IMG/VR virus record: IMGVR_UViG_3300021964_000500
Coordinates: 1-24,771 of that record
From: a virus
DNA length: 24,771 nt
Reading direction: 5' to 3' (one strand)
The position numbers and the translations under genes are program-made. A model generated the notes under the pieces. It had not been told where the DNA came from. It did no database searches and saw only the letters and a program-made list of their open reading frames with translations. Shown piece after piece: positions 2,296 through 16,986 of this stretch (position 1 is its first letter; each line of letters begins with the position of its first letter).

Positions 2296-2324
2296 TTTAC
2301 AAAGGCAAAAAAATAGTGTATAAT
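2296..2324 (+). promoter_or_regulatory. sigma70-type promoter, early cassette 2 (drives the structured RNA)
   Basis: TTTACA at 2296-2301, a 17-base spacer, and a perfect TATAAT at 2319-2324. The upstream GCATTTTTTCC is shared exactly with the promoter at 3172, and the downstream TATAAAATT and AAAAGG sequences are shared with both sister promoters. Unlike them, the ATG in the matching position (2357) is followed by ACA TAG, so this promoter leads into a non-coding structured region. Confidence 0.8.
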
Positions 2325-2370
2325 ATTATTATAAAATTGAAAAGGAAGTTTAAATAATGACATAGCGAAA

Positions 2371-2566
2371 GTAACCGACAAGGTGTTGTGATGGAGAAGT
2401 TGCATTAGGCAGAAGCAGAAGCACATCGGGGTTTACAGGTAAGGAACTACCCAGGGAACCATAGTCGGAGTATAAAACGTTCCCCTTATCTTCCGCGGAG
2501 GGGTATACCTATGGAAGATAAGGATGTGTTAGAGAGCCCCTCCAAAGAATTTTAACAGAATTGGAG
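2371..2566 (+). ncRNA. structured leader RNA with pseudoknot and Shine-Dalgarno switch (candidate orphan riboswitch)
   Basis: No reading frame of useful length covers this stretch. G+C over 2371-2543 is about 49% by hand count, clearly above its neighbours. Helices visible directly: GTAA-CCGA (2371-2378) with TCGG and TTAC (2426-2429, 2433-2436); GGTA/TACC (2438-2441, 2448-2451); GGGAAC/GTTCCC (2454-2459, 2479-2484); and an uninterrupted 11-bp stem CCTTATCTTCC (2484-2494) with 2513-2523. The loop of that stem holds GGAGGGG (2497-2503), fully complementary to CCCCTCC (2537-2543), forming an H-type pseudoknot. The same CCCCTCC overlaps CTCCAA (2540-2545), complementary to TTGGAG (2561-2566), which contains the ribosome site of the gene at 2575. 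The two pairings exclude each other, as in a translational riboswitch. A trans-acting RNA processed from the leader is the alternative. Confidence 0.7.
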
Positions 2567-2574
2567 AGTAGCAT

Positions 2575-2823
2575 ATGCCTAGCCCATCAGAGATACAATC
2601 AATGCTTCCACTATTTTTTCAACTCCTCTTCTTCGCAGTAGCTGGAGCATTGATTGTAGGCGTCTTCTTTTCCATAGTTGGCTGGTTTTTTCGTAATGCA
2701 ATACTTATTATGATTGTAGTTGCAATCATTTTTGCAGTCAACTATGGCTATATTGATTTAACTAAATTATTTGGAGCAGTACAAAATGACAATGCATCTA
2801 TTACCAGTTTACTACAACAATAA
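2575..2823 (+). CDS. small two-helix membrane protein
   Basis: 82 residues. GGAG at 2563-2566 sets the ATG at 2575. Two hydrophobic segments are evident: about residues 12-35 (LFFQLLFFAVAGALIVGVFF...) and 39-56 (NAILIMIVVAIIFAVNYG), separated by a short WFFR turn, with a polar C-terminal tail ending SITSLLQQ. The protein should sit in the host inner membrane. Size and topology would fit a holin-like or superinfection-exclusion protein, but nothing proves either. Its translation is probably controlled by the structured RNA directly upstream, and the next gene starts inside its 3' end. Confidence 0.7.
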   Translation: MPSPSEIQSMLPLFFQLLFFAVAGALIVGVFFSIVGWFFRNAILIMIVVAIIFAVNYGYIDLTKLFGAVQNDNASITSLLQQ

Positions 2824-5124: not shown

Positions 5125-6009
5125 ATGTCATTTGAAACACTAAAACGCAATCGCGGTTCTAATATCAGTAAAATCATTAAAGCAGCAGAAGCCACTAATA
5201 CTGGTGAAACTAAATCATACGTTGATGATAGAATATGGAAGCCAACTGTTGATAAAGCAGGTAATGGTTACGCTGTGATCAGGTTCCTTCCTGGTACAGA
5301 AGATAATCTTCCATTCGTAAGATATTGGGATCACGGTTTTAAAGGCCCTACTGGTCAATGGTATATTGAAAATTCACTTACTTCAATAGGTCAACCTGAT
5401 CCAGTTGGTGAACTTAACTCCAGACTTTGGAACTCAGGTATTGAGTCTGATAAAGATAGAGCAAGAACTCAAAAGAGAAGATTGCATTACGTAACTAACA
5501 TCTATGTAGTTAGTGATCCATCTGCACCTCAAAATGAAGGTAAGGTATTCTTATATAAATTTGGTAAGAAAATCTTTGATAAGATTTATGATCTTATGAA
5601 TCCTGCATTTGCCGATGAAACACCAATTGACCCATTTGATTTTTGGGAAGGTGCTGATTTTAAACTTAAGATCAGAAATGTTGAAGGTTATAGAAACTAT
5701 GATAAATCAGAATTCTCTTCTGCAGCTTCGTTATTAAACGGTGATGAAGCTAAGTTAGAAGAAGTCTATGGCAAGTTGCATGATTTATCAGAATTTACTA
5801 ATCCTAAAAACTATAAATCATATGATGAGCTTAAAGCGAAACTTATGAGAGTGTTAGGTGAACAAGCTACTGCTGGTGCCTATACAATGAAAGAAGAAAT
5901 TAAATTAAATAATCCTGAGCCGGCTGTTGAGCCAGTCACTGCAGAAGATATAAGTAGTGATGATGAGGATACTTTATCTTATTTCTCTAAACTCGCAAAG
6001 CAAGATTAG
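5125..6009 (+). CDS. 32: single-stranded DNA-binding protein gp32
   Basis: 294 residues (T4: 301). It coats ssDNA during replication, recombination and repair. The N-terminus is basic (LKRNRGSN), where T4 has the LAST motif for cooperative self-binding. The core shows the family blocks DRIWKPTVDKAGNGYAVIRF, DHGFKGPTGQWYIE, NIYVVSDPSAPQNEGKVFLY, KFGKKIFDKI and FDFWEGADFKLKIRNVEGY. The C-terminus is acidic (SSDDEDTLSYF), the usual protein-interaction tail. The three zinc-binding cysteines of T4 gp32 are absent: the loop after WYIE reads NSLTSIGQPDPVGELNSR and the whole protein contains no Cys, although the HGF histidine is kept. AAGGAG precedes the ATG. It ends 4 bases inside the opposing tape-measure gene. 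Confidence 0.92.
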   Translation: MSFETLKRNRGSNISKIIKAAEATNTGETKSYVDDRIWKPTVDKAGNGYAVIRFLPGTEDNLPFVRYWDHGFKGPTGQWYIENSLTSIGQPDPVGELNSRLWNSGIESDKDRARTQKRRLHYVTNIYVVSDPSAPQNEGKVFLYKFGKKIFDKIYDLMNPAFADETPIDPFDFWEGADFKLKIRNVEGYRNYDKSEFSSAASLLNGDEAKLEEVYGKLHDLSEFTNPKNYKSYDELKAKLMRVLGEQATAGAYTMKEEIKLNNPEPAVEPVTAEDISSDDEDTLSYFSKLAKQD

Positions 6010-7697
6010 CCAACATTCCATCCAAGCATCTGGTCCTGTAGATCTACTGCAGGGCCGTTTGATATTAGAGCGTTTGTAGTATTACTATTACTTATTGTTT
6101 GATTATTGGTCGGTGATATTATGACATTACTCTTTGAAGAGTTGTTATTATTAGTTGTATTAGAAGGAGCTGTATACTTTCCAGTTTCAGGTGGATTTAT
6201 GTTAGATTTTTGAAGTTGACTAGAAGGTTCTATTGTATTAGTCTTGCCTAATATCATATTCACTTTATTCATTTGTTTGACTAAATCATCTACCTTTAAG
6301 TCTGGAGATAAAAAACCTTTGCCAAAATCGACTTCTGGTATTCCATCAAAATATCCACTACCTACTTTTCCACCATTAGCCATTTTATCAATTAAATCAA
6401 GCTGAATACCCATTCCAGCAATCATGTCTTTGACACTTTTTTCAAATCCCTTAAGACTTATCTTTCCTAAGTCATTTAAGTTATCCATAAATTTCTTTAA
6501 TGCGCCACTAAGCCTATCTAAATTGTCAGCAACTGATACATCGATAGTTTTGAGAGGTTCCATAGCATCAACCATGCTTTGAATCATGTTTGCTCTTGTA
6601 GTCTTTTGATCTTTTAAATCTGTTCCAAATAAAAAGTTAACAATTTTTTTAGCACCATCAATTAAGCCATCAACTAATTGAACTCCGCCTGTGCCTACCA
6701 TTGCTGATAATAAAGCAGGCCCAATTCCAGCAATTGCGGCTATTTTGCTTAATAAACCATCAGCTTCTATTTTACTTAATTCTGATAATCCTCCAGCTAT
6801 ATTAGTAACTAAAGTTTTGAATGCACTACCGTCTACACCTAATACAGCACCTAGTTTAGTAATTCCAGCTAAAGATGTAATAAAAGCTCCAATGCCAACA
6901 CCTATTGCGCCAATTCCTAATGCTGCTGCTTGAGCACCTCCAGGAAATAATGCTAATAACGCACCTGAACCCATAGCGACACCTAGCGCTGCAAACTCTT
7001 TCCCTCCAAATGCGCTAAGGCCACCTGCAATATTTGTTAATAATTTTTTTAAGTTTTCTCCTTGGTCACCGCCCATCATAGACATTAAAGCATCAGCTCC
7101 AGCTAATGCGGTGAAAAAACCGGCCATGCCTACACCTACGGCAATTAAACCTTTTGCAGTACCTTTGGGGAATATTATACCTGCTGCTAAAACAGCACCT
7201 AATGCTAAAAATTCTTTTTTACCAAAGGCGCTTAAACCTTCAGCTAAATTAGTTAATAATTTTTTTATACCTTCACCAGCATCTTTTGATGCAAATTTTT
7301 GTATAATAGCTTCAGCACCAGCTAATCCTAAAAAGAATGCACCTAATCCAACACCGGCTGGTCCTAATGATGCCAATATCTTTGCAACGCCGCCTCCAAC
7401 AGCTTTAGCCAATAATGCAAGACCACCTAAGAATCCTATTCCCTTTAAACTTTTTAAGCTTCCAAATAATCCACCATCTGCTTTTTTAACTTGTTCAGTG
7501 ACACCAGATGTAACTGCTTTTCCTTTGGCAGTAGATTTTTCTCTTGATGCTTCAAGATCCATTTTAGATTTTTTAACAAAATAACTTGATACAGTGTTAT
7601 GTAAACTATCAACAGCTTGCGTTGTATCTATGGTAGAGTCATTATTAGTTTTGAGTTGATTAATAACATCACCTAATGTTGAATATGTTCTTGCCAT
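6006..7697 (-). CDS. tail tape-measure protein (T4 gp29 analogue)
   Basis: 563 residues, close to T4 gp29 (590). It would run inside the tail tube and set tail length. The N-terminal 80 residues are polar, then come long Gly/Ala-rich hydrophobic stretches (about residues 85-330). Three imperfect repeats start near residues 145, 217 and 294: KKLLTNLAEGLSAFGKKEF, KKLLTNIAGGLSAFGGKEF and KTLVTNIAGGLSELSKIE, a spacing of 72-77 residues. A charged helical segment follows. The C-terminus is Asn/Ser-rich and polar (NTTNNNNSSKSNV) and ends DLQDQMLGWNVG. GGAAAG precedes the ATG. It lies directly after the gp26/gp51 pair, the usual place for a tape measure behind tail-assembly chaperones. Assignment rests on composition, repeats and position rather than a motif. 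Confidence 0.75.
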   Translation of the reverse strand: MARTYSTLGDVINQLKTNNDSTIDTTQAVDSLHNTVSSYFVKKSKMDLEASREKSTAKGKAVTSGVTEQVKKADGGLFGSLKSLKGIGFLGGLALLAKAVGGGVAKILASLGPAGVGLGAFFLGLAGAEAIIQKFASKDAGEGIKKLLTNLAEGLSAFGKKEFLALGAVLAAGIIFPKGTAKGLIAVGVGMAGFFTALAGADALMSMMGGDQGENLKKLLTNIAGGLSAFGGKEFAALGVAMGSGALLALFPGGAQAAALGIGAIGVGIGAFITSLAGITKLGAVLGVDGSAFKTLVTNIAGGLSELSKIEADGLLSKIAAIAGIGPALLSAMVGTGGVQLVDGLIDGAKKIVNFLFGTDLKDQKTTRANMIQSMVDAMEPLKTIDVSVADNLDRLSGALKKFMDNLNDLGKISLKGFEKSVKDMIAGMGIQLDLIDKMANGGKVGSGYFDGIPEVDFGKGFLSPDLKVDDLVKQMNKVNMILGKTNTIEPSSQLQKSNINPPETGKYTAPSNTTNNNNSSKSNVIISPTNNQTISNSNTTNALISNGPAVDLQDQMLGWNVG

Positions 7698-14733: not shown

Positions 14734-16986
14734 ATGGCTAGTGAATCTTTTAGTCTTAACGGAAAAGCTTTTCAAAAAGGCATAGGTCCTATAGGAAAGA
14801 ATCGTTCGTTTAATGGTACTACATTTTTTTTCGCGCCTGAAGATAAAGGTAGAATAGTAAAAATTATTGAAGTTAGAGCAGGAGCAGATAGTTTAAAACA
14901 ATCTAAACTCGAACAAGGAGTAGGCTATTATTTTAATGGAACCACTGTAACATTAGTTAACGGTGGTGTGAATTATTTTAGAATTGAATTTGAAAGAGAA
15001 GTTACTCAAGAAGAATTTAATAAAGCAACAGAAAACGCACCAATATTGAGGGATATACAAGCTAAGTTAATTCTTAGTGTAGCTGGAGGCGAAGTTGCAA
15101 CTGTTAAAAATGAACAATTAAAAAATTCTGTAACTAAAAACTCTTTTTTTCAAAATCCAGGACAAATTATTTCAGGGTTTAAATCTTTTGGTGTAACTTC
15201 AAAACCTTCAAAAGATTTTGTTAAGAGTCCTATGCCCGTAATATTACAAGAAGATGCAGGCGATGGATCGGCAGTTTCTTCTTCTCCTAATGCGTCTTCA
15301 CTTGTTAAATTATTAAAAAAGAAAATGAATTCTACTAATTTATCTAAAATTGAAATATGTAACGGTACTTTAGATGATATTCAAAAAAGTTTAACAAAGA
15401 ATACACCAGGGTTAAAACCAACTGCTAGGAAAAATTTATTATCTACAAATTTTATTCCTGCCACAGTAAGTGCAAAAGTTTTATCAAAGGTTGAAGAAGC
15501 TGTAGCTGATAAAGAAGAAGGCAAATCACCTGAAGATATTATAGGTGCAAAACAAAAAGAAGTAGCAAAAGCGAGATCATCATTATTTAATAACGCAGGA
15601 TTTGATTTAGGTAAAATTGGTGATATGCTTCCTCAAGCTGGAAGATCTTTTGCAAATATACAACCAAACTTACTCGCCAAAGCTAAAGGGATTTCAGGTT
15701 CTACTGATATAACTGCACCAATATCAAATATCAACGATGGATTTATAATACCGCCTGAGCAAAAAGGTCAAGCAGTTGAAAAATTAATGAAAGGTAAAGA
15801 TTCAACTACTGGAAAAGTCGATTTTAGTACGAATATGAGTCAAGCTGTTGGTAAAGGAACTTTAACACCTGATATGACTCCAGATATTGGAAAAGAAGAA
15901 AAAGCTGCTGAAACTTCAAAGTCTAGATTTAATGGGTATCTTACACCCGATAATTATGTGTTTGAGTCTATTGGATCATATGACAAATTATTAGATTATC
16001 TGGAAGGAAGTGTTAGATGTAATACTAAAGGTGCTCGAGCAGTAACTCAATTGCTTGTTGATTACACAACTGATGATTATGTTTATGCTAAAGATGCAAA
16101 AGGTTTACAGAAGCTAAATAAAGAACTAGATTTAGAATTTACAATAGAAGAAGAAAAAAGTAAAAAAAGTCCAACAGAAGCAAGTGCTTCAGCTCGTAGA
16201 ATTTTAGAAGGTCCTGATGCAAAAAAATTTGGAATACAAGCACACTTTGTTATAAAGAGAGACGGTACTGTACAAAAAGGTCGACCTATAGACGAGATCA
16301 ATGATGAAGGAGTTTTTCCAGCAAGATTTGATAAAATGATATATGTTGTTTTGATAGCTGGTGAGACAAATCCTGTAACACCTCAACAGGCTGCAGCTGT
16401 TGATCATGTTATATCTGCAGCGTTTGTAGTTATGCCACAAATTTATGCACTCGGTATTAATGAGACTGATCCAGAGGTTGTTGGGCCTGGAATAGATATA
16501 TCTGCTATTAGAGCAAAATATAATAAAATAATAGCAGGAACATCAATAACAGAGTCAATAGATCCGGGTGATAAAACGAGAGAGGAACTTGCAGTTGTTA
16601 AGTCACCAGAATTTGTTAAAACTGTTCCTACAAAGCTCAGTGATATAGAAAAAATTAATCCTAGCAAAATTACAAAGGAATTTGAAAGTATTGATGAAAC
16701 AACTGGTATCAAAAAACCAGTAAGCATTGATGAAGCTACTGCTGAAATAAAAACTACATTAGAAGATATAAAATCAGGAAATATAGATATTCAAAGTAAT
16801 CTAGATGCATCTAAAATAAAAGCTAGAGGTGAAGCAAGTAAAATTTTAGGTGATAATAATGCTAACGCTCTTTTTAACAAACTAGACGGAAGTATGGGTA
16901 ATGTTGACGGTCTTATTAAAAATTTAAATATTAATAAAATTGATGATTTAACAAATAGCATAAAAAATGCTTTCGGAGTGAAATAA
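14734..16986 (+). CDS. large hub-associated protein with degenerate amidase-like domain
   Basis: 750 residues, lying between gp5 and the spike gene; GAGGAG in the last codons of gp5 serves as its ribosome site. The N-terminus (about 1-110) looks beta-rich (FNGTTFFFAPEDKGRIVKII, GVNYFRIEFEREVTQEEF). A long polar, Lys/Ser-rich stretch follows. Residues about 435-595 resemble an amidase_2/T7-lysozyme fold: LLVDYTTDDY, then FGIQAHFVIKRDGTVQKGRP, VTPQQAAAVDHVISAAFVV and GPGIDISAIRAKYN. The positions that hold the zinc ligands in T7 lysozyme (His17, His122, Cys130) appear to be Asp/Tyr, Asn and Gly here, so it is probably non-catalytic. The C-terminus is helical (SKIKARGEASKILGDNNANA). Likely a structural hub or spike-accessory protein. 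Confidence 0.65.
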   Translation: MASESFSLNGKAFQKGIGPIGKNRSFNGTTFFFAPEDKGRIVKIIEVRAGADSLKQSKLEQGVGYYFNGTTVTLVNGGVNYFRIEFEREVTQEEFNKATENAPILRDIQAKLILSVAGGEVATVKNEQLKNSVTKNSFFQNPGQIISGFKSFGVTSKPSKDFVKSPMPVILQEDAGDGSAVSSSPNASSLVKLLKKKMNSTNLSKIEICNGTLDDIQKSLTKNTPGLKPTARKNLLSTNFIPATVSAKVLSKVEEAVADKEEGKSPEDIIGAKQKEVAKARSSLFNNAGFDLGKIGDMLPQAGRSFANIQPNLLAKAKGISGSTDITAPISNINDGFIIPPEQKGQAVEKLMKGKDSTTGKVDFSTNMSQAVGKGTLTPDMTPDIGKEEKAAETSKSRFNGYLTPDNYVFESIGSYDKLLDYLEGSVRCNTKGARAVTQLLVDYTTDDYVYAKDAKGLQKLNKELDLEFTIEEEKSKKSPTEASASARRILEGPDAKKFGIQAHFVIKRDGTVQKGRPIDEINDEGVFPARFDKMIYVVLIAGETNPVTPQQAAAVDHVISAAFVVMPQIYALGINETDPEVVGPGIDISAIRAKYNKIIAGTSITESIDPGDKTREELAVVKSPEFVKTVPTKLSDIEKINPSKITKEFESIDETTGIKKPVSIDEATAEIKTTLEDIKSGNIDIQSNLDASKIKARGEASKILGDNNANALFNKLDGSMGNVDGLIKNLNINKIDDLTNSIKNAFGVK

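Follow-up and report, generated by a model that had tools for sequence, protein, structure and literature searches.

A probable new RNA family of T4-superfamily marine phages, with a start-stop ORF in front of a pseudoknotted fold

The pseudoknots of the SAM-II and preQ1 riboswitches and of the T4 gene 32 leader either take in or adjoin the ribosome site of a fixed target gene, or control a single fixed gene. Lambda bar and other AUG-stop minigenes consist of a Shine-Dalgarno sequence, a start codon, one or two codons and a stop. GOLLD and ROOL are ornate, pseudoknotted, large noncoding RNAs that come in part from phages, and the exonuclease-resistant RNAs (xrRNAs) of mosquito-borne flaviviruses carry a further hairpin after their pseudoknot. 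The flavivirus xrRNA is a three-way junction with a pseudoknot, L3-S4, and also blocks the bacterial RNase J1 (PMC5760640). In the shunt leaders of plant pararetroviruses a 5'-proximal short ORF stops 7-8 nt before a stable structure (PMC3291615).

We analysed a stretch of 24,771 nucleotides of the IMG/VR virus record IMGVR_UViG_3300021964_000500 (the window), which by its gene content is a fragment of a T4-like marine myovirus: Pfam and PHROG annotation identified a gp32-like SSB at 5125-6009 together with T4 baseplate and tail genes. Two large ORFs in this otherwise recognisable T4-like structural region, 6006-7697 (minus strand, 563 aa) and 14734-16986 (plus strand, 750 aa), had no PHROG or Pfam match at E 0.001. 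An earlier note on this DNA had described positions 2371-2574, just before a membrane-protein gene, as a candidate orphan riboswitch. The region is structured, but the 5' part was missed: the conserved unit, which is larger than described there, reaches from the ATG at 2357 to about 2543 (~190 bases). Judging from its homologues, it is very probably a member of an RNA family of T4-superfamily marine phages that has gone undescribed. The elements recognised in and around it, all on the plus strand, were the following:

2296-2324, plus strand: putative promoter, TTTACA-17-TATAAT, 11 of 12 consensus matches
2343-2348, plus strand: Shine-Dalgarno sequence AGGAAG of the start-stop ORF, read from the sequence
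2357-2365, plus strand: start-stop mini-ORF ATG-ACA-TAG, start and stop conserved in homologues
2365-2372, plus strand: short hairpin GC(GAAA)GU, right after the stop codon
2375-2379, plus strand: helix A, 5' strand CCGAC, pairing with GTCGG at 2464-2468
2382-2427, plus strand: arm B, 2382-2389 pairing with 2421-2427, with a variable extension inside
2430-2460, plus strand: hairpin D, outer stem 2430-2434/2456-2460, inner stem 2438-2441/2448-2451, loop 2442-2447
2443-2447, plus strand: PK1, 5' strand GGAAC in loop D, pairing with GTTCC at 2479-2483
2464-2468, plus strand: helix A, 3' strand GTCGG, partner of CCGAC at 2375-2379
2479-2483, plus strand: PK1, 3' strand GTTCC, partner of GGAAC at 2443-2447
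2484-2523, plus strand: hairpin E, with the 11-bp stem 2484-2494/2513-2523 of the earlier note
2497-2503, plus strand: PK2, 5' strand GGAGGGG in loop E, pairing with CCCCTCC at 2537-2543
2509-2511, plus strand: helix F, 5' strand CTA, pairing with TAG at 2530-2532, at the base of PK2
2537-2543, plus strand: PK2, 3' strand CCCCTCC, the 3' end of the conserved RNA
2540-2566, plus strand: anti-ribosome-site pairing CTCCAA/TTGGAG, present in the window and not counted as part of the RNA
2575-2823, plus strand: membrane-protein gene (82 aa), an ORF with its own ATG, 3' of the RNA

As read from the aligned relatives, the core of the RNA is a three-way junction (helices A, B and D) with the loop pseudoknot PK1, joined to an H-type pseudoknot made up of stem E, PK2 and the short helix F. 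Helix A encloses arm B and hairpin D, and GGAAC in loop D reaches GTTCC 3' of the junction; further helices upstream of the 11-bp stem, already listed in the earlier note, are indeed present. Changes on both sides were seen in all five pairs of helix A and all seven of arm B, four pairs in each being significant against a tree-based null; the extension of arm B is nearly missing in one relative (L234). Hairpin D, which has a conserved ACA/CAGG internal loop, showed compensatory changes, 98-100% of paired cells and three significant pairs. In PK1, 99.3% of cells were paired, three of five pairs were significant against the tree-based null, and the variants were GGAAC/GTTCC, GGTAG/CTACC, GGTAC/GTACC, GGTTG/CAACC and GGATC/GATCC.

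Alignment A2, a covariance-model-fitted alignment of the core (57 distinct rows, 28 pairs scored), had 95.3% of its cells paired, 18 of 28 pairs changing on both sides, 304 double-change cells against 103 after shuffling, and a covariation score of 0.523 (0.184 on shuffling, at most 0.084 on sliding), all of them counts that lean towards nested structure since A2 was fitted to the nested part, with PK1 outside the model. An independent MAFFT alignment, A1, agreed (91.1% paired; covariation 0.465 against at most 0.163 slid). By the tree-based null, devised for this analysis, 14 of the 28 pairs were significant and 0-1 after sliding; three remained in a stricter test over all column pairs, all inside the structure. 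The short hairpin at 2365-2372 was 97% paired in A2, where it varies little, and is weakly supported. Folding-energy z-scores were -1.45 for 2371-2574 and -2.02 for 2328-2600, and the minimum-energy fold differs from the conserved one. Because folding energy just weakly beats that of shuffled sequence, the case for structure rests on the relatives; thermodynamic folding by itself (z just -1.5 to -2.0) was rejected as proof.

The 3' domain had been described in part by the earlier note, and on a base-by-base check its 11-bp stem proved perfect, as did the complementarity in the window between CTCCAA (2540-2545) and TTGGAG (2561-2566). Stem E was perfect in all 50 distinct 3' modules, which carry 29 distinct stem sequences. 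The pairing of GGAGGGG (2497-2503) with CCCCTCC (2537-2543), likewise proposed there, is a genuine pseudoknot with compensatory changes in homologues: of 46 distinct loop/3' combinations, 37 had at least six Watson-Crick pairs, whereas with swapped partners 23% did. Covariation among homologues, which the note had suggested looking for in stem E and PK2, bears out a conserved structured RNA. PK2 takes the form TGATC/GATCA in the L161 type, and no clear PK2 was seen in L164 and L198. Helix F reached at least 3 bp with its own partner in 27 of 29 cases, against 55% swapped (CGGTC/GATCG, AGTTC/GAACT, AAGTC/GACTT and CTGTC/GACAG in relatives); in the window, with 3 bp only, its assignment is tentative. 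Whole 3' modules have been exchanged: L214 combines an L167-like core with the module of the window, L229 an L159-like core with an L178-type module, and L217 an L158-like core with an L201-type module. The E/PK2 domain would be a separately folding part that is swapped by recombination, and the presence of such a separable, recombining domain suggests that diversity has been selected for, as it is in arms-race elements.

Searching with the downstream protein brought up 80 viral contigs, about half of which have the RNA before the gene, the remainder showing a small unrelated gene in its place or a different upstream gene. In most of L011-L032 and L035-L052 the small gene (MQFTKEIKDIQF...YA) precedes the membrane-protein gene, its TAG overlapping the next ATG as ATGCCTAG; in L157 and L205 the RNA and the replacing-gene family co-occur. 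With a pattern built on the best-conserved stretch, 85 stretches were recovered from viral contigs, in many further gene contexts, and with a second pattern eight more that have divergent cores; the pattern ATGACATAGCNANAGTAA also matched many unrelated coding sequences, and only fold-like matches were kept and confirmed with R1, a covariance model of the core. R1 matched each of 95 loci once (bit scores ~54-125), and whole-contig searches gave exactly one match in 23 of 26 records and none in three; among the single-copy contigs is one of 328 kb that encodes a T4-type major capsid protein. The single copy in each contig speaks against a selfish element and against a generic leader, which would be reused. 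The scan of bacterial and archaeal genomes yielded one contig, L234 (NZLM01000077.1), binned as a marine Euryarchaeota MAG, which may be a misbinned phage as its ORFs match PHROG families of unknown function. Searches of phage GenBank records with blastn and tblastn gave, at the sensitivity used, chance matches to the RNA only, and R1 found nothing convincing in eight related isolates (including C48C1, Melnitz, HTVC008M, Syn33 and P-SSM2; best E 0.14, in Syn33). We found no published description of the family in the literature; it is spread over distant T4-superfamily phages, up to the 328-kb contig, with no described relative.

All 56 distinct 5' ends had a purine-rich ribosome site, then an ATG, one to three codons and an in-frame stop, and promoter-like sequence lay upstream of this start-stop ORF in distinct homologues with enough upstream sequence. 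The absence of ORFs reported earlier for this region holds for long ones, but the three-triplet start-stop ORF at 2357-2365 is conserved. Its commonest form is ATG-ACA-TAG, and variants are ATG-TTA-TAG, ATG-TTG-TAG, ATG-GAT-TAC-GGA-TAG, ATG-AGG-CGA-TAA and ATG-CGG-CGA-TAA. Since the intervening codons differ and a 6-base insertion preserves the frame, it is the start and the stop that are kept; the conserved ATGACATAGC could serve RNA folding instead of translation, although the mini-ORF variants argue otherwise. The distance from stop codon to helix A is 9-10 nt in all groups but one (5 nt in L179/L185/L191), which puts helix A about where, from the ribosome footprint, the leading edge of a terminating ribosome is expected. 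Given this agreement, a ribosome at the 5' end beside an intact fold appears to be the most economical reading. With an invariant start-stop ORF standing before a pseudoknotted fold, one may ask why a ribosome should be loaded onto a noncoding RNA. Two other translational events were considered and rejected: readthrough of the mini-ORF stop, which in the window is directly followed by a second in-frame stop, and bypassing of the T4 gene 60 type, for which no matching in-frame landing codon was found by eye before the window gene.

At least 11 unrelated small phage genes, or none, lie directly 3' of the RNA across the relatives. They encode the membrane protein, short lipoprotein-like proteins, proteins beginning MSEEIK, MKFIKEIKDI, MQYDLF, MDMDMF and MKNPIAK, and others. 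The 82-aa membrane protein itself had no Pfam or PHROG match, and many homologues of its gene have no adjoining RNA. Promoter-like sequence separates the RNA from its downstream neighbour in L203 and L234, and the RNA of L199, L208 and L167 is followed by a gene-free stretch of 100-250 nt (~250 nt in L199 and L208). In about 11 of 14 contexts a gene start comes within tens of bases, as would be expected anyway from tightly packed phage genomes. At ~250 nt 3' of the RNA, L199 and L208 have a second long inverted repeat and the conserved noncoding sequence GGGGTTTATATTGGCAGAATCGC, perhaps another structured RNA. Some of the RNAs (L167, L214, L219) are near a gene that, judged by eye, may be a PDDEXK-like nuclease.

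We tentatively favour the reading that the RNA works with a ribosome docked at the start-stop ORF, independently of the downstream gene. A ribosome would start at the AUG and, two to four codons on, terminate with helix A at its leading edge; halting there, it would never unwind the fold. The knotted fold and its docked ribosome would jointly make up a stable RNA acting independently of the next gene, most likely a phage noncoding RNA or a gene-independent 5' module whose 5' end the ribosome guards. Against docking, translation of the 80-codon ORF that one clade keeps open through the RNA would undo the fold, and the stop of L179/L185/L191 precedes helix A by only 5 nt; against gene independence, a role in cis is possible given how soon a gene begins after the RNA in about 11 of 14 contexts. 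Less probably, the terminating ribosome parked at the pseudoknot edge might be captured, transferred, disabled or used as a cap, the exchangeable domain giving specificity; we know of no ribosome-parking RNA machine of such a kind described in bacteria or phages.

Control in cis seems unlikely. The mini-ORF ribosome would be passed over the fold to the next start, a bacterial shunting, or the fold would couple translation of the mini-ORF to that of the downstream gene. The nearby gene starts would fit such a role, as would the layout, which matches the pararetrovirus shunt with 7-8 nt there (PMC3291615) and 9-10 nt here; yet in L203 and L234 a new promoter-like sequence follows the RNA, and L199, L208 and L167 offer no gene within 100-250 nt. 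The downstream genes, moreover, have their own ribosome sites, and bacterial ribosomes need no scanning.

An RNA acting in trans against host defence or translation, in which the core would serve as scaffold and the exchangeable E/PK2 domain would confer specificity, is given an equally low probability; the single copy per contig, own promoter, variable location and recombining 3' modules speak for this candidate role. Slightly less likely again is an exonuclease-resistant RNA, in which the junction and the loop-D pseudoknot would encircle the 5' end and stop a 5'-3' exonuclease such as RNase J. The order of elements is that of mosquito-borne flavivirus xrRNAs, and such RNA blocks RNase J1 (PMC5760640), but the likeness is one of topology only, with no Rfam match; by eye, no pairing of 5' nucleotides into the junction was seen to covary, and the start-stop ORF would be left unexplained.

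The dedicated switch of the earlier note, be it an orphan riboswitch, a thermosensor or a protein-binding leader, would have PK2 compete with a helix hiding the ribosome site of the gene at 2575; this now appears improbable. The competing pairings exist in the window, and the six-base CTCCAA/TTGGAG recurs in the close relatives L001/L206 and L170, but the helix is not conserved beyond chance, and the covariation expected in it was not found: in 20 distinct relatives that share the window's downstream gene, the mean run between the PK2 3' strand and the ribosome site was 4.10 bp with their own partners and 4.22 bp with swapped ones. Many same-gene relatives lack CTCCAA/TTGGAG (for example CCCCACAG...TTTGGAGG). 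As the pairing does no better than with swapped partners, the competition is in our view incidental: wherever a C-rich pseudoknot strand stands close to a G-rich ribosome site, the two can pair. The RNA is also found before unrelated genes, and homologues of the 2575 gene are often without it. The lack of a common theme among downstream genes, together with the intervening promoter-like sequence, speaks against reading the RNA as that gene's own riboswitch, thermometer or autogenous site.

In one clade (L201, L228, L218, L171, L160, L175, L192, L158, L217, L233 and others) an ORF of 80-85 codons (MEKE...) spans the RNA (about -44 to +205, counting from the start of the core), its ATG near the transcription start and its end usually in ATGCCTAG over the next start. 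Substitutions by codon position numbered 143/151/121, 38/32/42 and 50/60/57, and compensating frameshifts alter the protein while base pairs stay and the frame is still open; equal substitutions at the three positions and base pairs kept across frameshifts give no sign of selection on a protein. A protein gene with the RNA signal as a by-product, which this ORF and its ATGCCTAG end might suggest, is very improbable and as main explanation was ruled out by the absent codon-position bias, the shifts of frame with kept pairs and the lack of such an ORF in the window's clade also standing against it.

In keeping with the earlier view that no known class is present, neither the window's RNA nor that of 11 relatives had a gathering-level match in Rfam 15, and permissive Rfam scans of the window and three variants gave chance-level matches only. 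A group I or II self-splicing intron was rejected, there being no match to an Rfam intron model, as was a tmRNA, ARAGORN finding none in the window or in 20 RNA-bearing relatives. Methylophilales phage Melnitz (L298, MZ577097), among the nearest isolates by gp32-like SSB, has a tmRNA at 5232-5684 (tag ANDNYVPVDYALAA) near PDDEXK nuclease and gp32 genes; ribosome-directed RNAs thus exist in related phages, this one being unrelated in sequence to the new RNA. What is new is the RNA family and its layout, the function being inferred and no part of the claim to novelty. The anatomy (start, stop, single helices) offers direct entry points for mutation.

Like SAM-II, preQ1 and the T4 gene 32 leader, the last also from a phage, the RNA has an H-type pseudoknot in a 5' leader, but its ribosome site lies outside the conserved fold and the downstream gene varies. 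The logic of SAM-II and preQ1 as translational riboswitches was not recovered: mutually exclusive sequestration of the site was not conserved (20 distinct pairs), and no consistent class of downstream gene was found. With the shunt leaders of plant pararetroviruses (CaMV, RTBV) and RTSV it shares a short-ORF stop a few bases before structure. Those leaders, however, belong to eukaryotic scanning, have a large simple stem-loop and always lie upstream of a coding region, whereas the new RNA has a bacterial Shine-Dalgarno sequence, a pseudoknotted fold and sometimes no gene after it; the shunt feature of a structure followed by an ORF to translate is absent in L203, L234, L199 and L208. As in flavivirus xrRNAs, A, B, D and PK1 come in the same order, covarying, and are followed by another hairpin, but there is no sequence or Rfam match and the RNA stands behind an initiation site, not in a 3' UTR. 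For the conserved GUAA no covarying junction partner was seen by eye, and invariant bases cannot show covariation. Since the defining shunt feature failed and exonuclease resistance would be only a candidate property, we file the RNA under neither. GOLLD and ROOL, which are much larger, without sequence match and, to our knowledge, without a preceding start-stop ORF, resemble it as ornate pseudoknotted RNAs. We know of no conserved RNA fold behind lambda bar or other AUG-stop minigenes, and it is these that the 5' end of the new RNA resembles: a Shine-Dalgarno sequence, a start, a few codons and a stop.
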